A DNA stretch of 64,000 nucleotides from Sphingobacterium faecale (GTDB taxonomy: Bacteria > Bacteroidota > Bacteroidia > Sphingobacteriales > Sphingobacteriaceae), in assembly GCF_016746095.1 (NCBI RefSeq), contig NZ_JAERTY010000012.1, positions 62,001 to 126,000 of the forward strand. Reading direction: 5' to 3'. The notes below the pieces were generated by a model. It did no database searches. It saw only the letters and a program-made list of their open reading frames with translations, and was not told the DNA's origin. Position 1 is the stretch's first letter. Every line of letters starts with the position of its first letter. A program made the position numbers and the translations under genes. This document shows positions 35,855 to 54,089 of this stretch, piece after piece.

Positions 35855-36392
35855 TGTAGAGCTGCTCGTTCGGGAGCAACAGCCTAAATTGCGCTCTTTT
35901 ATCCGTAAGCACGTTTCCAGTGCAGAGGATGCAGAAGATATTCTTCAGGATGTGTTTTATCAGCTAGTAAAAACTATTGATGCCAACCTAAGTCCTATAG
36001 AGCAAGTCTCGGCATGGCTCTTTCGTGTAGCACGCAATATGATTATCAATAAAGGCAAAAAGAAACGGGAGGTTGAGATGCCTTTTTCGGAAGAGGACGA
36101 GGGGCAGGTGCTTGAAGAATTTTCCAATATTCTATTCGGAGAGCCTAGTCCTACCCCCGAGATGGTCTATTTCCGTTCTATGGTCTGGAAGGAATTAGAA
36201 AGGGGACTTTCCGAATTACCAACAGAACAGCGGGAAGCTTTTGAGCTTACGGAGATAGAGGGGATGCCCGTAAAAGAAGTCGCTATAAGTTTGAATATTC
36301 CGCTTAATACGTTGCTGTCCCGAAAACACTATGCCGTTAAGCAGCTGAGAAAGAAACTTTATGGGCTTTATAAAGATATTATGTTTTATTAA
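35829..36392 (+). CDS. ECF RNA polymerase sigma factor
   Basis: 187 aa from the ATG at 35829. Region 2 has VSSAEDAEDILQDVFYQLVK and WLFRVARNMIINKGKKKR; region 4 has LSELPTEQREAFELTEIEG and the HTH MPVKEVAISLNIPLNTLLSR. Unlike the two other sigma genes here, no fecR or susC gene follows. The gene overlaps the membrane-protein gene by 26 bp and the next small gene starts 20 bp downstream, so the three form one transcription unit. Role: probably an envelope or stress response rather than nutrient uptake. Confidence 0.9.
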   Translation: MTEPGKKINVELLVREQQPKLRSFIRKHVSSAEDAEDILQDVFYQLVKTIDANLSPIEQVSAWLFRVARNMIINKGKKKREVEMPFSEEDEGQVLEEFSNILFGEPSPTPEMVYFRSMVWKELERGLSELPTEQREAFELTEIEGMPVKEVAISLNIPLNTLLSRKHYAVKQLRKKLYGLYKDIMFY

Positions 36393-36412
36393 TCTAGAAA
36401 TACGAAATCATT

Positions 36413-36631
36413 ATGGTTTATATATTTGCCACCTCGGTACAGGATGACCGGGATATTCAGAAACTGACACCCTATCTGGAGGAAAAGCTTCCCGACGCAA
36501 GATGGAACTTTGATCTGGAAGACTGTGATAATATATTTCGTGTAGATAGCCCAACATCGGAGGCGGATACGATCGTGAAAATTTTGTTAGACGTGGGCTA
36601 TCATTGCGAAGAGTTACCTTACTCACTTTAG
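36413..36631 (+). CDS. Small conserved protein, HMA-like fold without metal motif
   Basis: 72 aa. Pattern beta-alpha-beta-beta-alpha: VYIFATSVQ, KLTPYLEEKLPDARWNFDLEDCDNIFRVD, IVKILLDVGYHCEEL (cited in parts). This resembles a ferredoxin-like/heavy-metal-associated fold, but the CxxC metal-binding motif is absent. Small proteins of this type with WNFDLEDCD are, as I recall, widespread in Bacteroidetes. It is the last gene of the sigma-factor unit and is followed by a terminator. Confidence 0.7.
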   Translation: MVYIFATSVQDDRDIQKLTPYLEEKLPDARWNFDLEDCDNIFRVDSPTSEADTIVKILLDVGYHCEELPYSL

Positions 36632-36677
36632 TTAGTTTACGAAAGAATAGAATCGTCAATAGGAGTTATTCTTGTTG

Positions 36678-36720
36678 AACAAAGGAATATTTGGATAACA
36701 GATATTCCTTTGTTTGTTTA
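36678..36720 (+). terminator. Terminator after the sigma-factor unit
   Basis: Perfect 13-bp arms AACAAAGGAATAT (36678-36690) and ATATTCCTTTGTT (36702-36714), followed by TGTTTA. Loop TTGGATAACAG. Confidence 0.7.
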
Positions 36721-36842
36721 ATCATAGCTTTGATCTGGGTTAGAATCCTAGTCTTTGGGATTAAATGAAAAACTTTAATTTTTTGTTACCCTAACGCAAC
36801 TTGAGTTCGTCATAAAAGAAAGTACTAATTATTAACCATTTC

Positions 36843-37928
36843 ATGATGAATACAATAATGAGAAAAAAAATTGTAGCACTATTCATTTCGATGTTTTCTC
36901 TTTACACTGTTTTTGGGCAAGAAACAGACTTGTCTGCAGAGGTAAAGTTGTTAAATGAACGGATTTCAAGTTTATCTTACTCGTTCGACCAGTTGTCCAA
37001 ACGAATAGAAGACAACGGCTGGTATAACAAGTTAAGTGGATTAGCCTACGTAGATAAGGTACGCATCACTGGCCCTGCAGCACCTTCGAAAAGTAAAACA
37101 GCTAAGGGTGCAGGAAACCCGCTTATTTTCTGGTCTTATGTATTTATTCCAAAAGAATTTAATCCCGCTAAGAGCTATCCATTGATCGTGCTGGTGCATG
37201 GTGGCGTACATGGTAACTTTGGGCTGAATAATGATCATATTGTAAAAGAGTTTTTGGCGCAGGGATACATCGTAGCGGCACCGGAGTATAGGGGGAGTAC
37301 GGGGTATGGAAAGAGGTTTCAGCAACAGATAGACTATGGTGGCCTGGAGATAGACGATACCAAAGCCTGTAGGGATTATATGATAGAAAATTATAGTTTT
37401 ATTGACAAAAAGAGGGTCGGTGTAGTAGGCTGGAGTCATGGCGGATTTCATGCATTGCACAATATATTTAACTATCCGGAGAGTTATACAGTAGCCTATG
37501 CCGGGGTACCTGTCAGTGATCTTATTATGCGCTTGGGCTATCAGGACAATAGCTATAGGAGATTGTTCTCGGCCGACTATCATATCGGCAAAGAAGTTGC
37601 ACAGGATGTGAAAGAATATCGTCGTAGATCTCCGGCATTCCAGGCCCATAAGCTCCAGACTCCTTTATTAATACATGCCAACACCAATGATGACGATGTC
37701 CTTATAGAAGAGGTAGAGCATCTGATAGCAGCGCTGAAAGCCAACAATAAGAAGTTTGAGTATGAGATTTATGATGCCGTACCAGGAGGTCATCATTTTG
37801 ATCGTATAGATAGTTATAAAGCTAAAGAAGTGCGTTTAAAGGTTTATCAATATCTACAAAAGTACTTAAAACCCAATAAGCCTTTTACCTCGCTGTCGGA
37901 ATTGATGACTGCTAGTTATATGCCGTAG
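36843..37928 (+). CDS. Secreted prolyl-oligopeptidase-like alpha/beta hydrolase (locus B)
   Basis: 361 aa (ATG at 36843; a second ATG at 36858 gives the better signal start). Signal peptide ends SLYTVFGQ. The catalytic domain starts with YPLIVLVHGGVHG (oxyanion hole), then the nucleophile elbow GWSHGGF (Ser), the acid in HANTNDDDVLIEE and His in PGGHHFDR. This is an S9-like catalytic domain without the N-terminal propeller; the short N-terminal helical part (~25-70) is coiled-coil-like. It stands 43 bp upstream of the sigma gene of locus B, so it may be part of the same regulon. Probably a periplasmic or secreted peptidase or esterase. Confidence 0.85.
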   Translation: MMNTIMRKKIVALFISMFSLYTVFGQETDLSAEVKLLNERISSLSYSFDQLSKRIEDNGWYNKLSGLAYVDKVRITGPAAPSKSKTAKGAGNPLIFWSYVFIPKEFNPAKSYPLIVLVHGGVHGNFGLNNDHIVKEFLAQGYIVAAPEYRGSTGYGKRFQQQIDYGGLEIDDTKACRDYMIENYSFIDKKRVGVVGWSHGGFHALHNIFNYPESYTVAYAGVPVSDLIMRLGYQDNSYRRLFSADYHIGKEVAQDVKEYRRRSPAFQAHKLQTPLLIHANTNDDDVLIEEVEHLIAALKANNKKFEYEIYDAVPGGHHFDRIDSYKAKEVRLKVYQYLQKYLKPNKPFTSLSELMTASYMP

Positions 37929-37971
37929 GAAATCGATAACGTTTATTTATATTTGGAAGGATACCTAAGTT

Positions 37972-38568
37972 ATGAATATAAAATCCTTGGTTGAAAAGCT
38001 AAAAAAAGGAGATCATCAGTCTTATATGAAGATCTATGACTGCTATTTTAAGCCTATACATCAGTTTATTTTACGTTACGTTCATGCCGACTCTGTAGCA
38101 GAAGATCTCACACAGGATGTTTTTGTTAAAGTATGGGAGAAGCGGGACTATTTAGATAAAGTAGATAATTTCAATGCTTATATCTACCGTATAGCAAAAA
38201 ATCATACCCTGGATTATTTAAAAAAGGTATCTCGTCTAGAGTTTATGCCGGATGAAATCCTAAAGGAGTTTAGGTTCTGTAGTGACGAGGTCGAACTATT
38301 TGTTACCAACCAGGAGTATTTCCATTTTTTAGATGCTTATATGGCGAATCTGCCAATCAAATCACAGCAGATTTTTATGCTGTGTAGAGAATTTGATAAG
38401 AGTTATGACGAAGTAGCAGCTGAACTATCTATATCAAAAAGTACGGTCAAGCATCATATGGTGGCCACCATGCGTAAGCTGTCTAAAGAAATCAAACAGA
38501 AATTCAAAATTGATCGATTCCATTCGTCACATATTATACATTTTTTTAAAATGTTTTTACCCTTCTAA
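37972..38568 (+). CDS. ECF RNA polymerase sigma factor (locus B)
   Basis: 198 aa. Region 2: VHADSVAEDLTQDVFVKVWE and NAYIYRIAKNHTLDYLKK; region 4: LPIKSQQIFMLCREF and YDEVAAELSISKSTVKHHMV. Same family as the sigma factor of locus A but clearly diverged. The FecR gene follows after 24 bp. Expected to transcribe the susCD operon downstream on receipt of the substrate signal. Confidence 0.93.
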   Translation: MNIKSLVEKLKKGDHQSYMKIYDCYFKPIHQFILRYVHADSVAEDLTQDVFVKVWEKRDYLDKVDNFNAYIYRIAKNHTLDYLKKVSRLEFMPDEILKEFRFCSDEVELFVTNQEYFHFLDAYMANLPIKSQQIFMLCREFDKSYDEVAAELSISKSTVKHHMVATMRKLSKEIKQKFKIDRFHSSHIIHFFKMFLPF

Positions 38569-38592
38569 TTGGCATTATCGTCTTATTTATAA

Positions 38593-39708
38593 ATGAAGAT
38601 AGAAGACACATATTACAGAAAGTTAGTAGATGGATATCTTAATAAAACGCTGACAAAAAGAGAATTGACCATATTCTTTGATCTTTTGTCTAAGGGGGAG
38701 TTGGATTTTTATCTCGAAGAAGACATGATCAGTAATTTTCCGCAAGAGCCCAAGCGGGAAAGAAAGTTAAAGGTATCTAGAACGACGTGGTTTGCGGCGG
38801 CGGCTGTTCTCGTCATGTTAATCGGATTGTCTAGTCCACTATGGTTTTCGAAAGAAACCGTGGAGGAGCCTTATGTCATGCCGAAAAGTTCAATCAAAGC
38901 TGGGGGAAACCATGCTGTTCTGACACTTTCGGACGGGCGTGAGGTTGTTTTGGGAGGAGATAGTAATGCCGACATTATACAGGACAATCAGGTTAATATA
39001 GCCAATTCGGTAGCAGGTGTGTTGAAATACGATTTCAGCAGCTTATCCTTGGATAAAGGGGATCCGGATAAAGCGCAGGAAAAGACAAACTGTATAAAAA
39101 CGCCGAATGGCGGTACCTATCAGATCATTCTATCCGATGGTACCAAAGTATGGCTCAACTCCCGTTCGTCGATTAATTTCCCTTTGATATTTGACAAAAA
39201 TGAAAGAGTAGTGGATATCGAAGGAGAGGTCTTCTTTGAGGTGGCCAAGAACGAACGCAAACCGTTTATAGTGCGGACAAAGTCACAAGAGATAAAAGTG
39301 ATCGGAACTTCCTTCAATGTCAATGCTTATAGTGATGAACCATTTGTCCGGACGACACTGGTTACGGGCAAGATTAAGCTGAAGGCCTCGGATCAACTCT
39401 TCTATCTGGAGCCAGGAGATGAACTTATTAACTATGGTGAGCATAGCAGATTGCAAACGGGAGATATAGAACAGGTACTGGCATGGAAAGAAGGGTATTT
39501 CAAGTTTGATAAAGTAGATCTAAAAACCTTAATGAGGGAAATAAGCCGTTGGTATAATGTTTCTGTAAATATAGATGCACAACTGAAAAACGACCGGTTC
39601 GTTGGTAAGATAAAGCGTTCAGAAGACCTGGATAAAATGATATATATTCTAAAAGAGGGCGGATTGAACATTCGTTTAGTAGACCGTACTATTATTGTGC
39701 GGGATTGA
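38593..39708 (+). CDS. FecR-type anti-sigma factor (locus B)
   Basis: 371 aa. Cytoplasmic N-terminal part ~1-65, TM helix ~66-86 (WFAAAAVLVMLIGLSSPLWF), periplasmic FecR domain with IKTPNGGTYQIILSDGTKVW and FEVAKNERKPF, and a C-terminal DUF4974-type domain (YFKFDKVDLKTLMREISRWY). Pairs with the sigma factor upstream and the STN domain of SusC downstream. Confidence 0.93.
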   Translation: MKIEDTYYRKLVDGYLNKTLTKRELTIFFDLLSKGELDFYLEEDMISNFPQEPKRERKLKVSRTTWFAAAAVLVMLIGLSSPLWFSKETVEEPYVMPKSSIKAGGNHAVLTLSDGREVVLGGDSNADIIQDNQVNIANSVAGVLKYDFSSLSLDKGDPDKAQEKTNCIKTPNGGTYQIILSDGTKVWLNSRSSINFPLIFDKNERVVDIEGEVFFEVAKNERKPFIVRTKSQEIKVIGTSFNVNAYSDEPFVRTTLVTGKIKLKASDQLFYLEPGDELINYGEHSRLQTGDIEQVLAWKEGYFKFDKVDLKTLMREISRWYNVSVNIDAQLKNDRFVGKIKRSEDLDKMIYILKEGGLNIRLVDRTIIVRD

Positions 39709-39765
39709 TTGACTGGCATTTTAGTCGGTATTTGATGACATAGTTATAAACCTAATTTACTTTTT

Positions 39766-42700
39766 ATGATTCCAAAGTTTAACTTAAGGCAGATTCTTCT
39801 GTCTTCACGACGGAAGAACACGATCTATAAACGCTTGATTGCTATCGCGCTTATAAGTCTGTCTCTATCCCCGTTGTATGCCTCTATTATAGGATTTACA
39901 TTTAAAAAAAAGAATGTCACTATTGAAGCTGTGTTGAAAGAGCTTGAAAAACAGACTTCTTATAATCTGTTCTATAAGTTTGAAGAGGTACGTATGTTAA
40001 AAAAAGTGGATGTTAATTTTGTTAACGCCTCACTTAAAGAAGTCTTAGATCAATTGATCAGCAATAATGGGCTAACGTACTCTATAACAGATAATACTAT
40101 TATTATAAAAACTACCGCATTGAGCAATCCTCCGGTGAAAAATAGCGACAATGTGCTACAGACAGGGACTATCAAAGGAAAAATCAGTGACAGGGCTACA
40201 CAGGCACCGCTTTCAGGTGCGACATTAAAAGTGAATAACAAAAGCCTACAATCTAATAATAACGGCGAATTTGTACTGAATAATGTCAAACTAGGCGATA
40301 GAGTAGAGATCTCCTTTACAGGATATATTGCAAAATCGATTACGCTGTCTGCTTTTAACGACCTTGATGTAGCGTTGGAGCTGGACTATAGCAGTCTGGA
40401 TGAGGTTGTTGTAACGGGATATACCGTTCAAAAGAAAAGAGAGCTTACCGGGGCGATATCATCCTTAAAAGCATCGGATGTCTCCGGTTCTTTGGCTGTG
40501 AGTCTAGACGGTGCTATGCAAGGACGTATGTCGGGTGTGAATGTGCAGTCAAGGGTAGGGGTGCCCGGAGCAGCGATAAAGGTGGAGGTAAGGGGCCCCG
40601 GATCTATTTCTGCAGGTACAGAACCTTTGTATATAGTAGACGGGCTAATCGTGAATAATAATAATGTGAGTAATACGGTGTCTACCAATCCATTGGCCAA
40701 TATTAACCCTGAGGATATTCTAACGATTGAGGTGCTGAAAGACGCAGCCGCAGCATCGGTGTATGGTGCACAGGCTGGTAATGGGGTTGTATTGATTACT
40801 ACGAAGAAGGGAAAGGAAGGAAGAGCAACGATAGATGTAGGGTACCGTGGGGGCAATGTAAAGCCGATTAATTTGCTGCCATTGATGAACTCACAGCAAT
40901 ATTTGAATGCACGCTATGAAGCATTGAAAAATAAAAACCCCAACCAGACCGATGAACAGATCTGGAAGACAGTCTTAACACAATCGCGATTGGATGTCAA
41001 TATGAACGCCAGTGACATTGCCAGGTTAGAGACTTACGATTGGCAGAAGGCAGCTTATACCGGAGGAGGGACTAATAAGTTCGACTTAGCGGTGTCCGGA
41101 GGTACGAGCTCCAGCAACTATCGTTTGTCGGGAAGCTGGGAAGATACGGAAGGTAGTATTGTTGGATCGGACTTTTCGAGGGGAACGGTTAATATGAACT
41201 ACAATAATCAACTGTCCAAAAAGGTAAGCGTACAGACGAATGTTAACCTTTCGGCTATTGACCAACACGGTCCATTGGGAGCGATGGGGACTACAACGCA
41301 GTTTTCTTCGCCAAGTTATGCAAATCCGATGATTCTTCCGTTCCTTCCGATTTATAATGAAGACGGAAGTTATAATTTCTCTTTAGCAGGTTTTCCGGGG
41401 ACTTTTACCCGTAATACGTTACACTCTACAGCGCTGAACGAATCCCGCGAGAAGAATAACAGTTTATTTGGCAATCTGCAGATCAACTATAAGATTTTAG
41501 ATAATCTTACCTATAAAGGAATGGCAGGTATTGATTACCGAGATATCTCGGCGAGGCAATACTACGATCCAAGAAGTATAGATGGAAATGCTAGGGGAGG
41601 AATTCTGATACAGTACACGGACAAACCGATTACATTCACGACGACACACACCTTGCAGTATGCACCCAAGCTGACAGACGGACATTCGCTTAATAACTTA
41701 TTGGGGACAGAGTACCGTAGTTTTTCTAATCAGGGAGGCAACGTGCGGGGGGAAGGGTTTCCTAACCATCTATTTACGGAATTAGCTTCGGCTGCGGTCA
41801 TTGTATCAGGTACATCACAGTGGACCGGTGTAAAGCGAATGGGCAGTTTCTTCCAGAGTAATTATAACTATGCCGATAAATATTTTGCATCAGGTATAAT
41901 CCGTTACGACGGTTCATCGAGATTCGGAGCTAATTCCAAATTTGGTTTTTTCCCAGCTATTTCATTAGGATGGGACATGGCGCAGGAAGACTTTATAAAG
42001 AATCAGGCCGTGAACCAGTTAAAGTTGAGGTTAGGCTATGGGCAGACAGGGAATGACCAGATCGGTAATTTTGCCTCACGTTCACTTTATGGCGGTGGGA
42101 TTACCTATAATGGTTCGGCAGGAATTCAATCCAATACTTTGGGTAATAGTGAGCTGAGATGGGAGAAAAATGTAACGACAAACCTAGGTTTGGACTATGC
42201 TTTTTTCAATAGTAGAATATACGGTTCTATCGAAGCATATCATAGGCTCAGCAAGGATTTGTTTCTTGACAAACCTGTGGTGTGGGCTGGAGGTTATAGT
42301 CAGATTACGCAAAATCTAGGAGAGGTGATTAATCAAGGACTAGAGTTTGAAGTTGGAGCGGTAGTGTGGAATAGAAATAATTTCAAATGGACATCCAATT
42401 TTAATATTTCGTTTCAGCGCAATGAGGTCACCAAGCTTTACGATGATGTTACCTTGCTGCCGGGGGACAATTCCGTAATGGTTGGACAATCATTGCGTAC
42501 ATTTCTTTTACCGCAATATGCAGGTGTCAGCAGCGCCACAGGACGAGCCGTATGGTATGACAAAGAAGGCAATTACTCCTACAATCCGGGCACCATGGAG
42601 CTGGATTCCTATGCACCTCATGGATTGCCCAATGAGTTACCCGATTTTTACGGCGGCTTTAACAATTTGTTCGAATATAAAGGACTCTCCGTAGGGATAT

Positions 42701-43149
42701 TCTTTCAGTACGATTATGGTAGGGTACTGTATGATAATTTTGCTAGAAACCTATCGAGAAAAGGAGATTCTCAAATTAATGGTATGGCTTGGTATTATGA
42801 TAACAGGTGGCTATCCGAAGGGCAGGTTACAAGTGTCCCGAGACCAATAGATGGCGCTGCAGAAACCAACAATGCGAGAGGAGATCTTGCTTCAACACGC
42901 TACCTACAGGATGGATCGTACATCCGGTTGAAAAACATCAACCTCGGTTATCAGTTACCGAAAACAATAATCAGCAAAGTAGGATTGAAGCAAGCTCGCG
43001 TGTTTATGCAGGGCAATAATCTGTATACCTGGACAAAGTTTGCAGGTTATGATCCAGAGTTTTATGTTGTAGGCTCCAATACCTCTTCCAATGTCGGTGT
43101 TGTCCCTACAGCCAAGTCGTATTATTTCGGAGTTCAATTAAGTTTTTAA
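39766..43149 (+). CDS. SusC-family TonB-dependent receptor with STN domain (locus B)
   Basis: 1127 aa. N-terminal export segment RLIAIALISLSLSPLYA, STN domain ~45-117 (KKNVTIEAVLKELEKQTSYN), carboxypeptidase-regulatory-like domain ~133-212, SusC plug signatures VVVTGYTVQKKRELTGAI and ILTIEVLKDAAAASVYGA, then the barrel ending GVQLSF. It is the outer-membrane importer of locus B, working with the SusD protein encoded 12 bp downstream. The downstream genes encode peptidases, so a peptide-like substrate is likely. It shares only family-level identity with the locus A receptor. Confidence 0.93.
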   Translation: MIPKFNLRQILLSSRRKNTIYKRLIAIALISLSLSPLYASIIGFTFKKKNVTIEAVLKELEKQTSYNLFYKFEEVRMLKKVDVNFVNASLKEVLDQLISNNGLTYSITDNTIIIKTTALSNPPVKNSDNVLQTGTIKGKISDRATQAPLSGATLKVNNKSLQSNNNGEFVLNNVKLGDRVEISFTGYIAKSITLSAFNDLDVALELDYSSLDEVVVTGYTVQKKRELTGAISSLKASDVSGSLAVSLDGAMQGRMSGVNVQSRVGVPGAAIKVEVRGPGSISAGTEPLYIVDGLIVNNNNVSNTVSTNPLANINPEDILTIEVLKDAAAASVYGAQAGNGVVLITTKKGKEGRATIDVGYRGGNVKPINLLPLMNSQQYLNARYEALKNKNPNQTDEQIWKTVLTQSRLDVNMNASDIARLETYDWQKAAYTGGGTNKFDLAVSGGTSSSNYRLSGSWEDTEGSIVGSDFSRGTVNMNYNNQLSKKVSVQTNVNLSAIDQHGPLGAMGTTTQFSSPSYANPMILPFLPIYNEDGSYNFSLAGFPGTFTRNTLHSTALNESREKNNSLFGNLQINYKILDNLTYKGMAGIDYRDISARQYYDPRSIDGNARGGILIQYTDKPITFTTTHTLQYAPKLTDGHSLNNLLGTEYRSFSNQGGNVRGEGFPNHLFTELASAAVIVSGTSQWTGVKRMGSFFQSNYNYADKYFASGIIRYDGSSRFGANSKFGFFPAISLGWDMAQEDFIKNQAVNQLKLRLGYGQTGNDQIGNFASRSLYGGGITYNGSAGIQSNTLGNSELRWEKNVTTNLGLDYAFFNSRIYGSIEAYHRLSKDLFLDKPVVWAGGYSQITQNLGEVINQGLEFEVGAVVWNRNNFKWTSNFNISFQRNEVTKLYDDVTLLPGDNSVMVGQSLRTFLLPQYAGVSSATGRAVWYDKEGNYSYNPGTMELDSYAPHGLPNELPDFYGGFNNLFEYKGLSVGIFFQYDYGRVLYDNFARNLSRKGDSQINGMAWYYDNRWLSEGQVTSVPRPIDGAAETNNARGDLASTRYLQDGSYIRLKNINLGYQLPKTIISKVGLKQARVFMQGNNLYTWTKFAGYDPEFYVVGSNTSSNVGVVPTAKSYYFGVQLSF

Positions 43150-43161
43150 AGAAAGATAATT

Positions 43162-44571
43162 ATGAAACGAAAATTTCTAGTTTCCATTATATGTTTAGGT
43201 TTATTCTCTTCGTGTGAAAAACTGTTGGAGATTAATCCTAAACAGTCTATTGATTCTTCAATAGCTCTTACTTCTACAGAAGGGATCTCAGCTGCATTGA
43301 CCTCTGTATATGCGCGTCTACAGCATTACACGCTTTACGGCAGGGATTACCTTGCGCTAGCGGAGGCATTATCGGACAATATGATTCATACCGATAACTC
43401 GTCACATCTGCGGCCCGAGGCGACGAATACCCGTAACGCGCACTTATCAGGCTGGCAGATGGGATATTATGCTATTAATCAGGCAAACCTGATTATCGAT
43501 GCCTTGAACAATGGCACCTACGAAAGCTCATGGAAGGCAAATACGTTGGGACAGGCATATTTCTTAAGAGCATTATGCTACCATGATCTTATGCGTACTT
43601 ATGCTTACGATCCTACTGCCATAGTAGATGCTTACAATTATGGAGGGGTGCCCTTGATGTTGGTCGGTGTAGATGATGTAGGTAAGATCGCGGCATTGGA
43701 AAGACCGACTCTGGAAAAAGTATATGATCAGATCTATGCAGATCTGGATCTGGCACATACCAACCTTACGAGCTCCAACTCCAGCTCAGTTCATTTGGCC
43801 ACCAAAGCTGCGGTCAGTGCTTTATATGCTAGAGTAGCCTTGTATAAAGGGGATTATGGAAAGACGGTTGAAATGGCAACCCAGGCGCTAGGGGAGACGA
43901 ATGCAGTGTTTTCAAACCAGGCCAATTTTCTAGCAGACTGGCGTAAAGAGGTGCATCCCGAATCTATATTCGAGCTGAAATTCAATATTTCTGAAAATAT
44001 TGGCAGCGACCGGTCACTGCGGTCCACGTACACGAGTAGAGCGACTTATGACGCTACATCCTTTTCAATTCAGGCTGTATTGGCGGTAGATCCTACCTTT
44101 TATACGAGTTATAGCAATGATGACGTACGTCGTGGACTGATAAGATCAGGAGTGGGTAAAAATGAAAGGTTTTTAGAAAATTATAAGTTTATATCCAAAA
44201 GTGGAACATTAGGGCTCGATAATGTTCCGATCCTCCGTCTTTCAGAATTATACCTAAATCGCGCCGAAGCACTAGCCCGTCAAAGTACGCCTGATGCCAA
44301 TGCTGCGATGCAGGACCTCAATAAAATAAGAAATAGAGCCGGACTCCCGTCAGTGACCCTCACTGGAGAGAGTCTGATCAATGAGATTATGCTGCAACGT
44401 CGTTTAGAGCTAGCTTTTGAGGGACATCGCTGGTTTGATCTGAAAAGAACAGGAAAGGATATCGTCAAAGTCAGCGGAAATATTGCTTTTACAGATTATC
44501 GTATCCTAGCTCCGATTCCTATCCGTGAAACGATAGCCGACCCCAGACTGAAACAAAACTTTAACTATTAA
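43162..44571 (+). CDS. SusD/RagB-family surface lipoprotein (locus B)
   Basis: 469 aa. Lipobox LFSSC (Cys 18). SusD N-terminal part with TSVYARLQHYTLYGRDY, TPR-like AQAYFLRALCYHDLMRTY, and the C-terminal RagB/SusD signature ILRLSELYLNRAEALAR and LQRRLELAFEGHRWFDLKR. Surface cap and binding subunit of the importer. Co-translated with susC and followed after only 4 bp by the small lipoprotein gene. Confidence 0.93.
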   Translation: MKRKFLVSIICLGLFSSCEKLLEINPKQSIDSSIALTSTEGISAALTSVYARLQHYTLYGRDYLALAEALSDNMIHTDNSSHLRPEATNTRNAHLSGWQMGYYAINQANLIIDALNNGTYESSWKANTLGQAYFLRALCYHDLMRTYAYDPTAIVDAYNYGGVPLMLVGVDDVGKIAALERPTLEKVYDQIYADLDLAHTNLTSSNSSSVHLATKAAVSALYARVALYKGDYGKTVEMATQALGETNAVFSNQANFLADWRKEVHPESIFELKFNISENIGSDRSLRSTYTSRATYDATSFSIQAVLAVDPTFYTSYSNDDVRRGLIRSGVGKNERFLENYKFISKSGTLGLDNVPILRLSELYLNRAEALARQSTPDANAAMQDLNKIRNRAGLPSVTLTGESLINEIMLQRRLELAFEGHRWFDLKRTGKDIVKVSGNIAFTDYRILAPIPIRETIADPRLKQNFNY

Positions 44572-44575
44572 TATC

Positions 44576-45049
44576 ATGCCTACTTCAATTATAAAACTAA
44601 GTATACTTTTGATAAGTATATTCTTTATCTCGTCATGTCAGGAAGACTACAACGAGCGTTATTTGATAAAAGAGAATAGTATAGAGCTGGAAGATGCGAT
44701 TACGACCACACTGGTTCCGGGAAAACCATATGGTATAATCAAGCGAAAAATTGGTGCTACTGCGTCAGTTACTTTACAGGTGAATATGTTTGGCGTTCAG
44801 CATAATCAGGATCAGTCTTTTTCATTCCGTGTGGTCGAGAATGAAAGTACTGCGATAATAGGTAAGGATTACCTGTTGCCCAACGGCAATACATTTATCA
44901 TACCTAAAAACAGCAACAAAGGCGTTATTCAGATCGACGGTGTGCCGTCAGGCGTAGGAAAATCCTTACTTGTATTGGAAATAATCGGCAATGAGCAGAT
45001 CAAAGTTGCTCAGAACTATAAGCTGATCGCTATAGAATGTCAATATTAA
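44576..45049 (+). CDS. Small surface lipoprotein, DUF4843/DUF1735-like
   Basis: 157 aa. Signal with lipobox FISSC. The mature part resembles the beta-sandwich lipoproteins that often follow susCD genes: VTLQVNMFGVQHNQDQSFSF, VENESTAIIGKDY and FIIPKNSNKGVIQIDG. The phrase 'A.eGkDY...  ...iP.g...G.i.I' is typical of these families. It is probably the accessory surface binding protein (SusE/F position) of locus B. Confidence 0.75.
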   Translation: MPTSIIKLSILLISIFFISSCQEDYNERYLIKENSIELEDAITTTLVPGKPYGIIKRKIGATASVTLQVNMFGVQHNQDQSFSFRVVENESTAIIGKDYLLPNGNTFIIPKNSNKGVIQIDGVPSGVGKSLLVLEIIGNEQIKVAQNYKLIAIECQY

Positions 45050-45191
45050 TTAGAAGTTTCAAACAGAAAGTGTTTTGGATGTTGTCTGATAGTTTGTATC
45101 TTGTTGCTTCCCAGTTAAAACCTACTAAAATAGTTTTGACGCTAGATCTTATAAGCCTTAAAAAAAAACACGTTATTGACTCAATGAGCAT

Positions 45192-46784
45192 ATGATGTAT
45201 AGATATATATTGTTGTTAATCAGTGTAGTATTATTCACCGCACCGGCTGTCGCTCAGGTAGACGATGTACATAGTCATTGGACCGGTAGCTGGCAGACTA
45301 TTGGTCCGCCAACAGGAACATTAATGATTATAGGAGGGGCTGCTTCTTCTGCTAATTATGATTATTTTATGCAGCTTGTGGGTGATCCTGCGGCTCCGAT
45401 AGTATTTATTCCTACTGCCGGAGATATATTTGACGAGACTAATACCGCTTATCAGGGGCTGGTAAAGGCCGGCGCAACGAATATCACCATATTGCATACA
45501 AAGCAACGGGATGTGGCTGACAGCGAGTCTTTTGTTGCTCCCTTAAGAAGTGCCAGAGCGGTTTTCATAGGAGGCGGATTCCAAAAGCGTTTGGCCGAGG
45601 CCTATCTTAATACATTGACCCATCAGTTGATGTTCGGGATCTTAGCCAAAGGCGGCGTGATTGCAGGCAGTTCTGCGGGCGCGTCTATACAAGGTTCGTA
45701 TCTCTATGGCGGAGGACCCGAACAGAAAATAGGTTTTGGTTTTATGAAGCAATCTATTATCGGTCAGCATTATATTCGTCGGAATCGTATGGGGAGTATT
45801 GCTAAGATCTTGAACAAGGAAGTCGATTTATTGGGCTTTGGTATAGATGAAGCAACTGCGGCGATCATTAAGGGCGATGTACTAGAGGTCGTAGGAGAAG
45901 GAAAGATAGCGATGTACAATCCGTTGCGGCCTGGATATACAACGGATAGTCCGCAGGAGTATTTGTTTTCTGGAGACCGGTACGACGTCCATACAAGGGA
46001 GATTATACATCGTTCCGACTTATTGTCCACGTCTGTATGGACAGAGGAGCAACGGGTAGAGCTGATAGCGAGAGTCAATAGCGGACCTGGCAGAGATTCT
46101 TTCGCTGGAAAGGTGATGATTTATGGCAGCCATAAACTGACTGATCAGGATCTCCGATTTTTTCTTGAAAAGCTCAATAAGCCAGCCGCTAAGATTGTCG
46201 TTTTATCTACAGGGAATGATACCATGCGTACAGAAGGGCTGACTTTGGTCAGGCGGCTACATCAGTTAGGCGGGCAGCATGCGGTACTTTTACATACAAT
46301 AAACAGCAGTAAAGCAAACACGGACGATATTACTGCACTATTGAAGGGTGCTGATGCGGTCTGGATAGGTGACACACGGAGCTGGCAGCTAGCCGATACT
46401 TATTTGTATACATCGGTGCATAGAGAGATGTTAGATATCGTACAACGGGGCGGAGTTATTGCAGGCAACGGGGCTGGTGCCGCCATGCTGTCGACCCGAT
46501 TATTTAGTGAGCCCGAGAAATACGGCTGGCACCACGGATTTGGTTTTGTCCGTGACGCTATGATCGTCAACCCTCATGCGGATCAAAAGTCGTTGGCACA
46601 GATGAAGACTGTTTTAAAACAGAATAAAAGGCTGAATGCTATTGTTTTGAATGAAGATTCTAAACTATTGGTAGAGGCAGGCCGTCTTCGTTTATTAGAA
46701 GGGAAACCTATATTTTTATATAATTCTGCAACCAATAAAACAAAGATAACAGCAGGCAAGGAAATTTTATTGAACGGACTATAA
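45192..46784 (+). CDS. Secreted cyanophycinase-like S51 protein with two S51 domains, second degenerate
   Basis: 530 aa, about twice a normal cyanophycinase. Signal peptide ends FTAPAVAQ. First domain (~35-270): GTLMIIGGAAS, IVFIPTAG and the nucleophile motif VIAGSSAGASIQG (Ser), then GFGFM...IGQHYIRRNRMG and GFGIDEATAAII, all typical of S51 cyanophycinases. Second domain (~305-510) repeats the fold: KIVVLSTGND, DAVWIGD, then VIAGNGAGAAMLS, in which the catalytic Ser is replaced by Gly, and HGFGFVRDAMIV. Family members release beta-Asp-Arg dipeptides from cyanophycin. Secretion and the susCD context suggest use of an extracellular polymer or isopeptide. It starts 142 bp after the preceding gene. 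Confidence 0.85.
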   Translation: MMYRYILLLISVVLFTAPAVAQVDDVHSHWTGSWQTIGPPTGTLMIIGGAASSANYDYFMQLVGDPAAPIVFIPTAGDIFDETNTAYQGLVKAGATNITILHTKQRDVADSESFVAPLRSARAVFIGGGFQKRLAEAYLNTLTHQLMFGILAKGGVIAGSSAGASIQGSYLYGGGPEQKIGFGFMKQSIIGQHYIRRNRMGSIAKILNKEVDLLGFGIDEATAAIIKGDVLEVVGEGKIAMYNPLRPGYTTDSPQEYLFSGDRYDVHTREIIHRSDLLSTSVWTEEQRVELIARVNSGPGRDSFAGKVMIYGSHKLTDQDLRFFLEKLNKPAAKIVVLSTGNDTMRTEGLTLVRRLHQLGGQHAVLLHTINSSKANTDDITALLKGADAVWIGDTRSWQLADTYLYTSVHREMLDIVQRGGVIAGNGAGAAMLSTRLFSEPEKYGWHHGFGFVRDAMIVNPHADQKSLAQMKTVLKQNKRLNAIVLNEDSKLLVEAGRLRLLEGKPIFLYNSATNKTKITAGKEILLNGL

Positions 46785-46796
46785 TCCACCTAACTT

Positions 46797-48875
46797 ATGA
46801 AAACAAGACTATATTTATCAATTTTACTATTTGGAATGATGGTCGTTTCTGCTTTTCCGCAGAATCAGGAATTAGCAAGACTATTGGCTACGCCCTATAT
46901 CGGTAAAGTGGTAGGAGCCACCAATGCCAATGTAGTAGCCTTCACGGTAAATGAAAGAGGACATCGGAATATTTACATCGCGGAGGGGGCAGGTTATAGG
47001 GTTAGAAAGCTAACCGATTTTGATAGCGATGATGCGCAGGAAATCAGCAGTCTGTCGATTAGCAGCGATGGTAAGTGGATCGTATTTGTCCGGGGCGGGG
47101 ATCACGGCGCTAATAGTGCTGCAGTAGCGACCAACTCGGCATCTTTTGTCGATCCTACTAAAATTGAGGTTTTTAGTCTTTCTGTTGGTGACCGAAGTTT
47201 ATATAAGATAGGTCTGGGAGATTTTCCGATCCTTCATCCGGATGGGACTTCCGTTTCTTACTTTCGTTCGGGGCAGATATGGACAGCTTCTTTAGATGGG
47301 GAGAAGGCGGGCAAGCCCTTATTTAATATGAAAGGGGCGGCTGGTAATATGAAATGGTCGCCGGATGGAACAAAATTGGCCTTTATGTCCCGCCGCGGTG
47401 ACTATAGTTTTATAGGGATATACAGCAAGTCTAATCCTAGAATACAATGGATAGGACCCTCCTTCCATTCTGATAGTTCTCCGCAGTGGTCTCCTGATGG
47501 ACGTCACATTGCATTTGTGCGTCGGGATGCAACCGGTGGAGCCTTAGATTCGTTAACCTCGTTTACCTATGAAGGCTGGTCGGTTATGTTAGCATCTGTA
47601 GATGATGGCATAGCGCATGAAATCTACCGTGCCCCCTTAAACAAAGAAGCAACTTTTCCACGCATTTCAGGACAGGTCAATTTGAGCTGGGTACATCAGC
47701 GGTATCTTACTTTTATGTCTTACGAAAGCGGATGGCCACACTTGTATCGTCTAGAAATAGGCTCAAAAGAAGTAAAGCAGCTTACCAAAGGAGCCTTTAC
47801 TGTTGATAATCTAAACTACAGTAGCGATGGCAAAGAAATTGTCTTTGCTGCGAATACGGGCAAGGACAAGTATGATTTTGAGAGATCACATATAGGAAGA
47901 GTAGATGTAGAGTCAGGGCAATTCAAGATCTTGACCGAAGGAGAGGAGATTGAGACAGCTCCTTTCTATTTTAACCAAGGGCAGTCGATCGGCTTTTCAT
48001 CAAGTTCTTTTAATAGACCGGTACATCCGAAAGTGTACCATCTGAAAGACAGGCAATCAGAATTGATTGGTAAAGAGATTTTTGACACACAGGGGGACAG
48101 TTTTGTAAAACCGGAACAGGTCTTTATTACGTCCGAAGACGGCGTCCGTTTTAGCGCGCAGTATTTTAAACCCCGGCACAAAAATAAGGATCTTCCCGCT
48201 TTAGTTTATATTCACGGTGGTCCCCGTAGGCAGATGTATCTCGGCTGGCACCATATTGATTACTATTTTTATGATTACATCGTCAATCAGTATCTAGTTG
48301 AGCAGGGATATGCCGTATTATCTATCAATTACCGAATGGGTACCGGTTATGGTTTTGACTTTCAGCACCCACGGTCTGCAGGCAATCTGGGCGCTTCCGA
48401 ATATTTGGATGTATTGGCGGCAGGGAAATGGCTGAAACAACAGTCGGATATCAATCCTTCCAAAGTAGGACTATTTGGAGGCTCCTACGGCGGCTATCTG
48501 ACGGCAATGGGCCTCGCTAAAAATTCTGATATATTTAAAGCCGGAGTAGATATACACGGGGTGCATAATAGAGAGCGTAAACAGAATCCTTCTCAATATG
48601 CGCCGGATTTTGAATTAGCAACACAGCTCAACTGGGAATCCTCTCCATCAAAGTGGGTAGACACCTGGCGTTCGCCGGTTCTGATCATACATGGTGATGA
48701 CGACCAGAATGTCGCTTTTTCCCAGAGTATAGATTTATACAATAGACTCAAAAAACAAAATGTAGAGGTAGAGGTGTTGGTACTTCCCGATGAAAACCAC
48801 CATTGGCAGTTATTTGAAAACCTGGTGAAGGCAAAAGAAGCCACAGTAGATTTTCTAAACCGTAAACTGAAATAA
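46797..48875 (+). CDS. Secreted S9-family (acylaminoacyl/dipeptidyl) peptidase
   Basis: 692 aa. Signal peptide ends SAFPQ. N-terminal beta-propeller with TolB/WD-like repeats (WSPDGTKLAFMSRRGD, WSPDGRHIAFVRRD, YSSDGKEIVFAANTG), then the S9 catalytic domain from about residue 440: oxyanion loop YIHGGPRRQM, nucleophile elbow FGGSYGGYLT (Ser), Asp in IIHGDDDQNV and His in PDENHHW. Typical complete S9C/S9B architecture; cleaves short peptides, since the propeller filters by size. It lies between the cyanophycinase-like and carboxypeptidase genes, with 12 bp and 1 bp gaps, so all three are one operon. Probably periplasmic processing of imported peptides. Confidence 0.9.
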   Translation: MKTRLYLSILLFGMMVVSAFPQNQELARLLATPYIGKVVGATNANVVAFTVNERGHRNIYIAEGAGYRVRKLTDFDSDDAQEISSLSISSDGKWIVFVRGGDHGANSAAVATNSASFVDPTKIEVFSLSVGDRSLYKIGLGDFPILHPDGTSVSYFRSGQIWTASLDGEKAGKPLFNMKGAAGNMKWSPDGTKLAFMSRRGDYSFIGIYSKSNPRIQWIGPSFHSDSSPQWSPDGRHIAFVRRDATGGALDSLTSFTYEGWSVMLASVDDGIAHEIYRAPLNKEATFPRISGQVNLSWVHQRYLTFMSYESGWPHLYRLEIGSKEVKQLTKGAFTVDNLNYSSDGKEIVFAANTGKDKYDFERSHIGRVDVESGQFKILTEGEEIETAPFYFNQGQSIGFSSSSFNRPVHPKVYHLKDRQSELIGKEIFDTQGDSFVKPEQVFITSEDGVRFSAQYFKPRHKNKDLPALVYIHGGPRRQMYLGWHHIDYYFYDYIVNQYLVEQGYAVLSINYRMGTGYGFDFQHPRSAGNLGASEYLDVLAAGKWLKQQSDINPSKVGLFGGSYGGYLTAMGLAKNSDIFKAGVDIHGVHNRERKQNPSQYAPDFELATQLNWESSPSKWVDTWRSPVLIIHGDDDQNVAFSQSIDLYNRLKKQNVEVEVLVLPDENHHWQLFENLVKAKEATVDFLNRKLK

Positions 48876-48876
48876 T

Positions 48877-50202
48877 ATGCGCAATTCTGTTTCTTATCTT
48901 ATCGTTATGCTCTGTTTCTTTATATTGCAGAGCTGTGCTGTCAAAAAACATACCGACCAGCGATATACCATTGGCCACGATTCCCTGCTGAATACCGCCA
49001 GTTATGGATTAAAAATAGTCGATCTGGACAAAGGTACAACGCTTCATAGTTTAAATTCCGATCGTTTTTTTATACCGGCAAGCAATACGAAATTATTGAC
49101 GATGTACGCCGGATTGCGGACATTTGGTGACAGCATCCCCGGTTGGAGTATTGCCGAAGACAATAACCACATCTATCTCGAACCCAATGGCGACCCCACG
49201 TTTTTGAACGATGAATTTCCAGAACAGCGTATTTTTGAAATTCTTAAAAATACCCACAAAACCTTGCGTGTTGTCATGCCCGGGAATACCGCTTTTGGAC
49301 GGTTTGGCTCAGGATGGTCCTGGGGAACCTGGCAAGAGACCTATTCACCAGAGCGTAGTGTGATGCCTGTCTACAACAACATGGTCAGATTTTATAAGGA
49401 AGGTAATACCTTTAAAGCTATTCCTTCTTTTTTTAATAACCTGATTGAACCACCTACCGAGGACGCTCTGCGTGCCGCACACAGTATAGTATTGCGTGCA
49501 GAGACCAGCAATCATTATAAGGTACAAAAGAATAGTGATCGAAATAGCTGGATCAGGCCGTTTACCGGCCTTAATAACGACACGTTGGCCTATATGCTGC
49601 TAAGCGATACCTTGCGGCGGGCCAATGCCGGTATCAGTATGTCTATTGTCCGGAATAAGCCAGACCACTTGATATTTTCTCCTGTGCATACCGTGGCGAC
49701 AGACACACTGTTTGCTAAGCTGATGAAGCGTAGCGATAACTTTTTTGCGGAGCAGATGATGCTTATGGCCGGAAAGATAAGGTATGGTTCGTTTGCTGAC
49801 TTCGGAACCATTAGAAAGCTCCGTGGGGATCTATTTGATGGCATCCTCGATCAGGGAAAGTGGGTGGATGGCAGCGGATTGAGCAGAGGCAACCTGATAT
49901 CTCCCGATGAGTTTGTAAAACTACTGACAGTAATATATAAGAGTAACGATTTTGAGCGTGTCAAAAGGATTTTACCCTCAGGCAATGAAGGCACCCTCCG
50001 TGGATTATATAAAGGATACGAGTCCCATATCTGGGCCAAAACCGGAACATTGGCCGACCATCTCGGACTGAGTGGCTATCTTAAAACGAAGAAGGGAAAT
50101 AATTTAGCCTTCTCTTTTCTGATCAATAACTACCGCGGCAGCGCTAACGATTATCGCAAAAAGATAGAGGAAATATTAATCTGGATTATAGAGCATGATT
50201 AG
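48877..50202 (+). CDS. dacB: D-Ala-D-Ala carboxypeptidase/endopeptidase, PBP4 (DacB) family, lipoprotein
   Basis: 441 aa. Lipobox LQSC (Cys 20). All penicillin-binding motifs of the S13 family are visible: SxxK as PASNTKLL (Ser69/Lys72), SxN as RSDNFFAEQ and KTG as WAKTGTLADH. The inserted domain between the first two motifs (~100-270) is of the PBP4 type. It removes the terminal D-Ala and cleaves D-Ala-mDAP cross-links of peptidoglycan. It begins 1 bp after the S9 peptidase stop, so it is transcribed with a peptide-import locus rather than a cell-division cluster. This suggests a role in degrading imported muropeptides or cross-linked peptides, although it could be ordinary cell-wall trimming. 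Confidence 0.9.
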   Translation: MRNSVSYLIVMLCFFILQSCAVKKHTDQRYTIGHDSLLNTASYGLKIVDLDKGTTLHSLNSDRFFIPASNTKLLTMYAGLRTFGDSIPGWSIAEDNNHIYLEPNGDPTFLNDEFPEQRIFEILKNTHKTLRVVMPGNTAFGRFGSGWSWGTWQETYSPERSVMPVYNNMVRFYKEGNTFKAIPSFFNNLIEPPTEDALRAAHSIVLRAETSNHYKVQKNSDRNSWIRPFTGLNNDTLAYMLLSDTLRRANAGISMSIVRNKPDHLIFSPVHTVATDTLFAKLMKRSDNFFAEQMMLMAGKIRYGSFADFGTIRKLRGDLFDGILDQGKWVDGSGLSRGNLISPDEFVKLLTVIYKSNDFERVKRILPSGNEGTLRGLYKGYESHIWAKTGTLADHLGLSGYLKTKKGNNLAFSFLINNYRGSANDYRKKIEEILIWIIEHD

Positions 50203-50261
50203 CATACGTTGTATAGATTCGTAAGAATGCTTCTCCCGTATCAAGGTTTACATTTGAACAG

Positions 50262-51539
50262 TTAGGATGACAATGACAGTAACTTAGCGATTCTTTCCCG
50301 TTCCTTATCCAGTAGTGGGATAGCCTGCTCTATAATAGGCAATATTTCCGCTTTGCGGTCAGTCTGTAACAGCAGATCCAGGAATCCCAGATACGTCCTG
50401 ATCAGGTCTGCCTTTATACCTACAAAGGCACGTGGGTCAGCAATATAAAGCTCCTGAATCAGTTGCAGCAGCGTAGCCTTACGCTGCCTATCCACATCCG
50501 ACGAGCTGTATCGAGGCAACAGGTTTTTATAAATGAGTTCCTCTAGCTTAATACCCACCGCTTGTTCACGCACATACTTCTTCTGCTTACGATCCAGCAT
50601 ATCCCGGAGCTCCGTCAATAGCTTGCGGTACACCACCAGATGCTCCTTTTCACTGAATAGATTCCCCTCGGAGGACAATGTCATATCAGATTGCTCAAAG
50701 CCATTAAAAAAAGTAGACTCCACATACACCGAATGGTGAAAATCAATCGCATTATTGTTAAAACTACTTAGTAGCTTCGCCACTTCCAGTTTATTACTAT
50801 CCATAAAATAATAATAGTAGCGGTCACCAATAGGGTATTTCCAACGGATATAGTTGACCCTAAATACAAATGAATTCTCCTCAGGGCTGTATATAGTCAA
50901 AGCAGTTTCGTCCGTTTCCTCAATCAGCTGTTGATAGGAGATGGGCTTATCATTTATCTCGATTTTATAGCCCATATCTTTGTTAAGGTGTAGGAACCAT
51001 CCAAACTCTTGCGCCATAAAATCCAAAAACTCATCTGCGTCAAGGGCTACAGCATTCAGGCCGAATACCCCCTCCAGCACCACAGTAGTACCCGTATGAT
51101 CAGCATTCGACGGTTGCAGTTCTGTGCTATCGTAAGTTTCTTTAGATTCCCGGTCGATGACCAGCTTATACTCCATCAGCTCCTGGCCAATAGCCACGAC
51201 CGTATTCCAGGTAGCACGTGTAGCGAATAGCGAAAAAGAAAACCGGCCTTTACCCTTTTTACCCCGCATGTACGATGTCCTTTTAGGCTGTCCCTTTTTT
51301 AGTGAATCCAAAAAGTTGCCAAAAGAATAGTCCAGCGTATCAGGCGCTATACCCTCACCGTTATCGGTAATATAAATACGTTCAATATAGCCCAGCTGAT
51401 TACTCCTTATATCGATAGATACCGTAGTAGCCTTGGCATCAAATCCATTCCATACATATTCAGCAATGACCTGCTTTGCATCTTTTGGTAGACCTGCAGA
51501 CTCTATACTCGCATTTGTTATCCTGGTGCTATTCTTCAT
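50262..51539 (-). CDS. GHKL ATPase-domain protein (Hsp90/MutL/MORC-like), lone
   Basis: 425 aa from the ATG at 51539; 15 codons of frame further upstream are less likely. N-terminal Bergerat ATPase: VIAEYVWNGFDAKA (Asn and Asp of the N box), YITDNGEGI (DxGxG), MRGKKGKGRFSFSLFA (lid) and HTGTTVVLEG. A transducer-like domain follows (~155-300), then an alpha-helical C-terminus with RKLLTELRDMLDRKQKKYV. The family is cytoplasmic. Related ATPases of this size occur in restriction, defence and DNA-repair contexts; no nuclease or partner gene is adjacent, so the role is open. It is convergent with the DacB gene. Confidence 0.8.
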   Translation of the reverse strand: MKNSTRITNASIESAGLPKDAKQVIAEYVWNGFDAKATTVSIDIRSNQLGYIERIYITDNGEGIAPDTLDYSFGNFLDSLKKGQPKRTSYMRGKKGKGRFSFSLFATRATWNTVVAIGQELMEYKLVIDRESKETYDSTELQPSNADHTGTTVVLEGVFGLNAVALDADEFLDFMAQEFGWFLHLNKDMGYKIEINDKPISYQQLIEETDETALTIYSPEENSFVFRVNYIRWKYPIGDRYYYYFMDSNKLEVAKLLSSFNNNAIDFHHSVYVESTFFNGFEQSDMTLSSEGNLFSEKEHLVVYRKLLTELRDMLDRKQKKYVREQAVGIKLEELIYKNLLPRYSSSDVDRQRKATLLQLIQELYIADPRAFVGIKADLIRTYLGFLDLLLQTDRKAEILPIIEQAIPLLDKERERIAKLLSLSS

Positions 51540-51744
51540 GATTGTAAGCCTTTCATCAAATCTAATCAAAATATCTTTTACCACGTTGTTTTATGCTAAA
51601 AAAAATAGCATTTCAAATTCACTATACGGATGTAGATGTTCGCTATCAGCCCTGTGTTTTTACACAATATTATTTGATTCACTATTAGATATCATGTATC
51701 TTGTTGTATACTTCAGTATAGAAGGCTGGTAGAGAATTGTATAT

Positions 51745-52467: not shown

Positions 52468-52532
52468 AATTTCTGAAATTACATATCACTGTACCAGCGA
52501 CAATGATCGGAAGCTACTAGCTTGTTGTTTTG

Positions 52533-52583
52533 GGAATTTATGATCACCGAGACTATCAATCCAGTAACGGTAGCGCGAGTAGG
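52533..52583 (-). pseudogene. Remnant of a small membrane protein gene (copy of the gene at 56098)
   Basis: Translated on the minus strand, 17 codons read PTRATVTGLIVSVIINS. They align without gaps to the last 16 residues of the 60-aa protein encoded at 56098-56280 (VLATITGLIAAAIINS), with differences such as AAT/AAC and TCC/TCA that keep the amino acid. The homology stops abruptly on the 5' side and the stop codon is lost (read-through into CAA). This is a decayed duplicate of the other gene's 3' end. Confidence 0.6.
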
Positions 52584-52681
52584 GGAGTTAGGGTATCCTA
52601 TTGTATTATAGTGTTATAATTGTTATATTTATGTATTCATAATTTAATATATTCCGCGCCTGCGGTTATAATTGGTTTGGT

Positions 52682-52711
52682 ATAGCCCTCGCGTCCGCGA
52701 GGGCTATTTTT
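52682..52711. terminator. GC-rich hairpin terminator
   Basis: Perfect arms ATAGCCCTCG (52682-52691) and CGAGGGCTAT (52698-52707) with loop CGTCCG, then TTTT. Located between the convergent ends of the lipoprotein gene on the plus strand and the one on the minus strand. Confidence 0.75.
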
Positions 52712-52736
52712 GAATGTTTGAGTTTGTGACGAGACA

Positions 52737-53936: not shown

Positions 53937-54037
53937 AATCAAAGCTATATTAGGCTATGCTTTTAAGCAATACCCTTTTATAGGTATTTTTGTCCAATAC
54001 ATAGAATGACTTGATTTAGGGCGCATATTCATATCCT

Positions 54038-54080
54038 GCCTACGAACTACAGGTCAGCTGATTTTGTGAAGTTTTGCGGA
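54038..54080. repeat. Direct repeat, 43 bp (copy 1)
   Basis: 40 of 43 bases match copy 2 at 55050-55092. The core AGCTGATTTTGTGA is identical. The two copies flank the single lipoprotein gene 54090-54839 at a distance of 1012 bp. Confidence 0.75.
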
Positions 54081-54089
54081 ACCAATACT

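Follow-up and report, generated by a model that had tools for sequence, protein, structure and literature searches.

A SusCD locus with peptidases and a hybrid SusC in a Sphingobacterium genome: candidate for the uptake of extracellular peptides

Which cargo is imported by a SusCD locus whose accompanying enzymes are peptidases, and how did this locus come by its importer? The question is raised by nine genes at positions 36843-50202 of the window, i.e. the whole stretch of 64,000 nucleotides analysed here (62001-126000 of its contig). It stems from Sphingobacterium faecale, a soil-type bacterium of the Sphingobacterium group, whose assembly comprises 5.40 Mb in 53 contigs. All nine genes are located on the + strand; according to Pfam and NCBIfam they encode, in this order, an alpha/beta hydrolase (abH), an extracytoplasmic function (ECF) sigma factor, a FecR protein, SusC with an STN domain, SusD, a lipoprotein, a double S51 protein, an S9 peptidase, and an S13 peptidase. 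An earlier note, made from the sequence alone, had described the same row, and each gene was recovered in its place, with a family match for all but the lipoprotein. Its second observation held as well: none of the nine proteins matched a glycoside hydrolase or polysaccharide lyase family in Pfam or NCBIfam, so that the locus does not classify as a polysaccharide utilization locus. The intergenic gaps measure, in gene order, 43, 24, 57, 12, 4, 142, 12, and 1 bp; the range of 1-60 bp, which the note had given for most gaps, applies to seven of them (1-57 bp) but not to the 142 bp between the lipoprotein gene and the S51 gene.

The best explanation, to which we assign a probability of about 0.6, is a SusCD-type locus predicted to take up and break down a peptide, or an amide oligomer of another kind, from outside the cell, with a transport core that was exchanged beneath a retained set of sensor and enzymes. 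The exchange is proposed because the front of SusC matches the SusCs of peptidase loci, while its plug and barrel match another clade. SusCDs that import peptides (RagAB) or capture iron have been described before, as have clusters for the scavenging of cyanophycin (PMC11817032, PMC5429918, PMC10206079), and loci of the peptide or amide class have been studied far less than glycan loci. The new part is the exchange of plug and barrel under fixed sensor and peptidases; a limited literature search yielded no paper on such an evolutionary swap.

A hybrid SusC

SusC scores 710 bits with the SusC/RagA model TIGR04056 (cut-off 368), and Pfam assigns the domains STN, CarboxypepD, and Plug. Its sensor front (39766-40428, residues 1 to ~221) consists of the signal region, STN, and CarboxypepD_reg; its transport core (40429-43149, residues ~222-1127) consists of the plug and a 22-strand barrel. 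The STN domain is 49-52% identical to the SusCs of the peptidase loci in Sphingobacterium sp. SGG-5, strain SGR-10, and S. paucimobilis, as compared to ~24% for the SusCs of two triads (L084, L085). These triads are made up of SusC, SusD, and a lipoprotein, lack peptidases, and occupy other sites in the genomes of SGG-5 and SGR-10; PdxA, which is encoded behind them, was judged to be a housekeeping neighbour. For CarboxypepD, the corresponding values are 39-45% and ~30%. With plug and barrel the relation is inverted: here, the identity to the triad SusCs is 80-81% and 71-72%, respectively, and 29-33% to the peptidase-locus SusCs. The switch of affinity is located at the segment DEVVVTGY (TonB box, residues ~213-221).

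SusD (43162-44571; PF07980/PF14322; lipobox Cys18), whose gene starts 12 bp behind SusC, is 69-70% identical to the triad SusDs and ~24-25% identical to the SusDs of the Mx1-type loci introduced below. The 157-residue surface-type lipoprotein (44576-45049; lipobox Cys21) matched no family itself, and its predicted structure (pLDDT 42) was too poor for a structure search. We regard it as DUF4843-like, as a 38% identical paralog in locus L038 matches DUF4843 with an E-value of 1.2e-05, which is below the gathering threshold; a literature search yielded no paper on the function of DUF4843. Judged by these relationships, the SusC of the window is a hybrid, whose front belongs to the SusCs of peptidase loci, and whose plug and barrel derive, like SusD and the small lipoprotein, from another SusC-SusD-lipoprotein clade, joined at DEVVVTGY.

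Phylogenetic analysis led to the same division. In the tree of the SusC front, the window grouped with the peptidase-locus SusCs (support 100/99). A tree of concatenated sigma factor, FecR, and front gave identical support (100/99), and the barrel grouping was rejected in the approximately unbiased (AU) test (p-AU 0.0017). Conversely, placing the window together with the SusCs of the peptidase loci was rejected for the barrel tree (p-AU 9e-35). We also compared front and barrel among 44 SusC genes, which form 756 pairs with a barrel identity below 36%. The nine highest front identities of these pairs (38-43%; mean of all 756 pairs 24.8, standard deviation 4.1) belong exactly to the pairings of the window group with the peptidase-locus SusCs. 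The pairs of window and triad SusC, having a barrel identity of 72%, reach only the background level in their fronts.

The sensing set encoded by the locus is complete according to Pfam: the ECF sigma-70 factor (37972-38568; Sigma70_r2/r4, with TIGR02985 slightly below cut-off), FecR with FecR_C (38593-39708; PF04773, PF16344), and the STN domain of SusC. The C-terminal part of FecR is 51-54% identical to the FecRs of the Mx1-type peptidase loci and 26% identical to the FecR beside the closest barrel relatives; thus, the FecR C-termini track the SusC front and not the barrel. This is to be expected from the known mechanism of FecR-STN signalling, as FecR and STN presumably must match. Scans for promoters and terminators across the locus gave no excess over shuffled sequence, and no match to the Bacteroidetes -7/-33 promoter pattern was found near the locus.

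A second swap occurred at the same joint. In S. paucimobilis, the downstream SusC of two tandem copies combines a front of the SGG-5a/SGR-10 type with a barrel of the SGG-5b type, and the upstream SusC shows the reverse. In the tandem loci of S. paucimobilis and SGG-5 (L057, L123), the SusC barrels have traded sensor fronts between species. An assembly artefact is unlikely to account for the junction of the window SusC, because it is common to three genomes. A replacement at the same chromosomal site was considered relative to S. paucimobilis. Some of the genes downstream have counterparts there (90-97%), though in rearranged order, and the sequences flanking the S. yanglingense locus correspond to another region of the window's contig, so that identity of the site is unproven.

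Bacteroides is known to possess phase-variable shufflons of receptors that are governed by a single regulator (PMC12548429). They resemble our case in that the same regulator front can serve different SusC transport parts; in contrast, the exchange described here is a fixed difference between species. A scan of 36000-51000 of the window detected no inverted repeats of at least 18 bp, and no recombinase was recognised among the locus genes. A more general scheme is conceivable but doubtful, and we put it forward tentatively: SusC genes of Sphingobacterium might be built from interchangeable halves meeting at the TonB-box joint, and a conserved frame of sigma factor, FecR, STN front, and peptidases might take in new cores of plug/barrel, SusD, and lipoprotein by recombination. 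A locus for peptides containing D-amino acids, from murein or of non-ribosomal origin, would thus have gained a new importer with its regulation kept.

By means of a hybrid SusC, a cell can alter the imported cargo while keeping switch and enzymes. The two independent exchanges at one joint, in the window group and in the tandem loci of S. paucimobilis and SGG-5, amount to a natural experiment on cargo change, in which sigma factor, FecR, and STN were kept and the pore was changed. They offer a way to test whether a foreign STN domain can transmit the signal of a barrel that stems from a different locus, and they suggest that the function of a SusC is predictable from plug and barrel and its regulation from the front, each separately.

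A frame of sensor and peptidases around different SusCD pairs

The complete row of nine genes is kept in S. yanglingense (L055/L095), which is the closest named relative for this locus (S51 protein 84% identical), and in one further genome (G319). In SGG-5 and SGR-10 the order is abH-sigma-FecR-SusC'-SusD'-Mx1-DUF4302-DUF4302-S51-S9-S13, where Mx1 stands for TIGR04549, "substrate import-associated zinc metallohydrolase lipoprotein", with an HExxH motif. S. paucimobilis has tandem copies, SusC'-SusD'-Mx1-...-S51 followed by abH-sigma-FecR-SusC''-SusD''-Mx1-...-S9-S13, and in another genus, two genomes (L155, L156) show the order SusC'-SusD'-Mx1-DUF4302-DUF4302-S9-S13-abH. The order SusC-SusD-Mx1 is found in L035, L036, L057, L155, and L156; the window locus contains neither Mx1 nor DUF4302. 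Hence, sigma factor, FecR, the front of STN and CarboxypepD, abH, S51, S9, and S13 appear as a constant frame common to loci with different SusCD pairs.

The earlier note had proposed a search for the same gene order in other Bacteroidetes, and this search was successful. The association of the genes is beyond chance, because the row is kept in S. yanglingense, the frame in SGG-5 and SGR-10, and a row of SusCD, Mx1, two DUF4302, S9, S13, and abH in another genus. From their gene context, abH, S9, and S13 are assigned to a SusCD that bears its own HExxH metallopeptidase. The Mx1 type is probably ancestral, because these three genes accompany an Mx1-type SusCD in SGG-5, SGR-10, S. paucimobilis, L155, and L156.

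The enzymes of the frame look active, as their catalytic residues are intact. AbH (36843-37928; PF00326, 123.8 bits) is a secreted S9-type alpha/beta hydrolase of 361 residues; Ser198, the Asp283-285 region, and His317/318, which occupy the catalytic columns of the alignment, are kept in the orthologs. Its gene adjoins sigma/FecR in SGG-5, SGR-10, and S. paucimobilis and follows S13 in L155 and L156. The secreted S9 peptidase (46797-48875; PF00326, DPPIV_N) carries a beta-propeller and has DPP4-type enzymes as nearest solved structures; Ser563, the Asp634-636 region, and His668/669 are kept in all orthologs compared. The S13 DD-peptidase (48877-50202; PF02113), a probable lipoprotein (LQSC), is PBP4-like, and its structural matches are PBP4 structures. 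Its motifs SxxK (Ser69/Lys72), SxN (Ser286), and KTG (Lys388) are kept in seven orthologs. A lasso-peptide isopeptidase (NF033523) was considered and rejected, with matches far below cut-off.

The S51 gene (45192-46784) codes for two Peptidase_S51 stretches, repeat 1 (residues ~37-290), which likewise looks active, and repeat 2 (~300-525). The doubles detected all come from a few genomes of the Sphingobacterium group or from one metagenome-assembled genome of Pedobacter. Judged by its motifs, repeat 2 is catalytically dead: in seven of seven double proteins, Gly427 occupies the position of the nucleophile, and the other active-site motifs are missing. Since its fold is still like that of peptidase E (Z 18-19 in the AlphaFold model; pLDDT 73), repeat 2 is probably a structural or substrate-holding copy.

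Cargo and competing explanations

Further information on the cargo came from other loci with the same transport core. We compared 23 loci of the window's SusC-SusD-lipoprotein clade with 21 SusC loci from outside this clade in the same genome. Amide or D-peptide hydrolases belong to the same gene run in 12 of the 23 clade loci and in none of the 21 others. Among these sets are S51-S9-S13 (window, L095, L096); an AmpH-like peptidase, another protein of the beta-lactamase fold, and an L-Ala-D/L-Glu epimerase (L098, L099, L158); a pair of beta-lactamase-fold peptidases in each of L161 and L162; FGase with amidohydrolases (L038, L163, L164); and, in L157, a pair of amidohydrolases to which an S13 gene is adjacent. 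This pattern points to peptides or amides, leaning to murein-like peptides with D-residues. Because the clade adjoins such hydrolases elsewhere, the cargo is likely to consist of peptides, perhaps containing D-residues or derived from murein.

The peptide class proposed in the earlier note is thus retained as the predicted substrate class, given the intact peptidases that stay together beside two types of SusCD, of which one has an HExxH metallopeptidase. Among the polymers named there, muropeptides gained support as a predicted cargo, and cyanophycin lost ground, as argued below. A peptide with D-residues such as a murein stem peptide is the most likely cargo, and its assignment is the weakest step of the explanation. 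One of the closest known systems is RagAB of Porphyromonas gingivalis: it shares the SusC/RagA-SusD/RagB pair, a search of solved structures with the window SusC placed RagA with the best matches, and a peptide cargo is proposed for both. The window differs in having sigma/FecR/STN sensing, the DUF4843-like lipoprotein, S51, S9, and S13 of its own, and a SusC of mixed descent.

In the proposed mechanism, peptides would be trimmed outside the cell by abH, S9, and S13, acting as secreted enzymes or at the cell surface (S13 being a probable lipoprotein); the small lipoprotein and SusD would capture them, and SusC would import them via TonB. Occupancy of the barrel by a ligand would be signalled through the retained STN domain to FecR and on to the ECF sigma factor, which would switch on the operon. 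In the periplasm, S51 repeat 1 might take off residues of the Asp or isoAsp type, S9 might release di- or oligopeptides, and S13 might cleave bonds of D-amino acids. If the cargo are D-residue peptides, the locus would constitute a TonB-dependent route for scavenging cell-wall peptides.

Several observations weigh against this explanation. For the SusC front taken alone, the AU test against the barrel grouping gave p 0.067, which we did not count as rejection. In the clade comparison, the hydrolase labels had been chosen from the loci of the clade itself, and these loci are related, so that the twelve cases correspond to about five independent enzyme sets and the p value of the comparison should not be taken at face value; the other 11 of the 23 loci have no such hydrolase, several of them having a metallophosphoesterase-like gene instead. 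The S9-S13 pair also occurs once free-standing, without SusCD (L091, in G074). Moreover, the similarity of SusC and SusD to solved transporters does not separate peptide from glycan importers, and the predicted localisation of the enzymes is deduced from their signal sequences.

S9, S13, and possibly S51 could be general periplasmic or cell-wall enzymes, which merely lie behind an ordinary glycan SusCD. The free-standing pair, the 142-bp gap in front of S51-S9-S13, and the GH32, PfkB, and major facilitator superfamily (MFS) genes that immediately precede the related loci of SGG-5 and SGR-10 would agree with such a chance neighbourhood. We consider it unlikely, as the peptidase genes stay behind SusCD in five species of the Sphingobacterium group and, together with the metallopeptidase, in two genomes of another genus; as the frame retains them when SusCD is swapped; and as the locus contains no glycoside hydrolase. 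In addition, the genome has three S13 genes, and one of the two outside the locus is more canonical. Clearly improbable is a role in iron capture, in which a peptidase frame descended from an iron capture system (ICS) would strip iron from metalloproteins or peptide siderophores, and sigma/FecR would answer to the iron complex. Sigma/FecR/STN is indeed the classic layout of ferric-siderophore sensing. The relatives' SusC-SusD-Mx1 order with further lipoproteins resembles the ICS-type loci (IcsC-IcsD-IcsE...) of Capnocytophaga and Riemerella with their TIGR04549 lipoprotein; in Riemerella anatipestifer, an Mx1 family member belongs to an operon reported to be homologous to the Capnocytophaga ICS and induced by iron limitation (PMC5429918). 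However, the window locus has replaced this core by a different SusCD, having lost Mx1 and DUF4302, and contains no iron-handling gene; furthermore, DUF4302-type SusCD genes of B. thetaiotaomicron show negative values in an iron study (PMC10434189).

Very improbable, in our view, is the scavenging of cyanophycin or another beta-Asp isopeptide, with S51 as a secreted cyanophycinase and SusCD as importer of beta-Asp-Arg dipeptides. The S51 protein exceeds the cut-off of the cyanophycinase model TIGR02069 (139.6 versus 126.6 bits), and repeat 1 superposes on cyanophycinases (7uqv, Z 23.8; 3en0, Z 22.6). Ser161, His193, and Glu220 align with the triad positions (Ser132, His174, and Glu201 in CphB); Gln131 and the RNR motif are shared as well. 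The pocket, however, is altered in seven of seven doubles, where GGDQ of CphB reads GGFQ (Phe130) and DQH reads GQH (Gly191), unlike the single-domain SusCD-linked S51 proteins, which retain the second Asp (DQH). Therefore, cyanophycin is not an obvious substrate of the S51 protein. Transporter-bearing clusters for cyanophycin scavenging are known in Bacteroidetes (PMC10206079). Utilisation loci of this kind combine a cyanophycinase with IadA/IaaA and a transporter; the window shares the cyanophycinase-family enzyme near a transporter, but it has a dead repeat 2, no isoaspartyl dipeptidase, and additional S9 and S13 enzymes, which, like Mx1, would be superfluous for cyanophycin. Neither IadA nor IaaA is encoded in the locus, and no IadA scored above cut-off in the genome, although two Asparaginase_2 genes, both on another contig, could split beta-Asp dipeptides. 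Several cassette relatives (the L090-type tail, L091, L155, L156) lack S51 beside S9-S13. No CphA was found above cut-off in the genome either, which likewise speaks against cyanophycin; storage of cyanophycin was rejected on this ground. A literature search yielded no paper on a combination of SusCD, peptidase, and cyanophycinase.

Related and neighbouring loci

Several other loci were noticed during the analysis. A widespread locus of SusC, SusD, and a single S51 protein occurs in genomes of the Pedobacter/Mucilaginibacter type (L039-L054, e.g. L049:4559-17748). Further along, it encodes two proteins without a recognised family (443 and 567 residues), a cytochrome c, a SoxC-like sulfite dehydrogenase, a flavin adenine dinucleotide (FAD) enzyme, and a YeiH-type exporter; perhaps a cyanophycinase-like enzyme is tied here to sulfite oxidation, for a sulfonated peptide. 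The clade loci L098 (6495-19667), L099, and L158, having the AmpH-like peptidase, the beta-lactamase-fold protein, and the epimerase, look like murein-peptide uptake loci. The genes that directly precede the Mx1-type peptidase loci of SGG-5 and SGR-10 (L123:1606-8282, L124) form a fructan set, in which a hybrid regulator accompanies GH32, the PfkB kinase, and the MFS transporter.

The genome of the window yields ~204 tblastn matches to the window SusC, and the number of SusC-like genes is probably above 100. Within the window, a second sigma/FecR/SusCD locus without glycosidases is located at 17376-33417; it encodes two BACON/DUF5689 proteins, two proteins with the endonuclease/exonuclease/phosphatase fold, and a beta-propeller. 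The region 50262-62000 has a low GC content (0.345-0.366 from 52 kb on) and codes for a GHKL-ATPase (HgiDII-/MutL-like), a RhuM-family protein, a TPR protein, and DUF6624, of which the last two have counterparts with ~90% identity in the neighbourhood of the S. paucimobilis locus.

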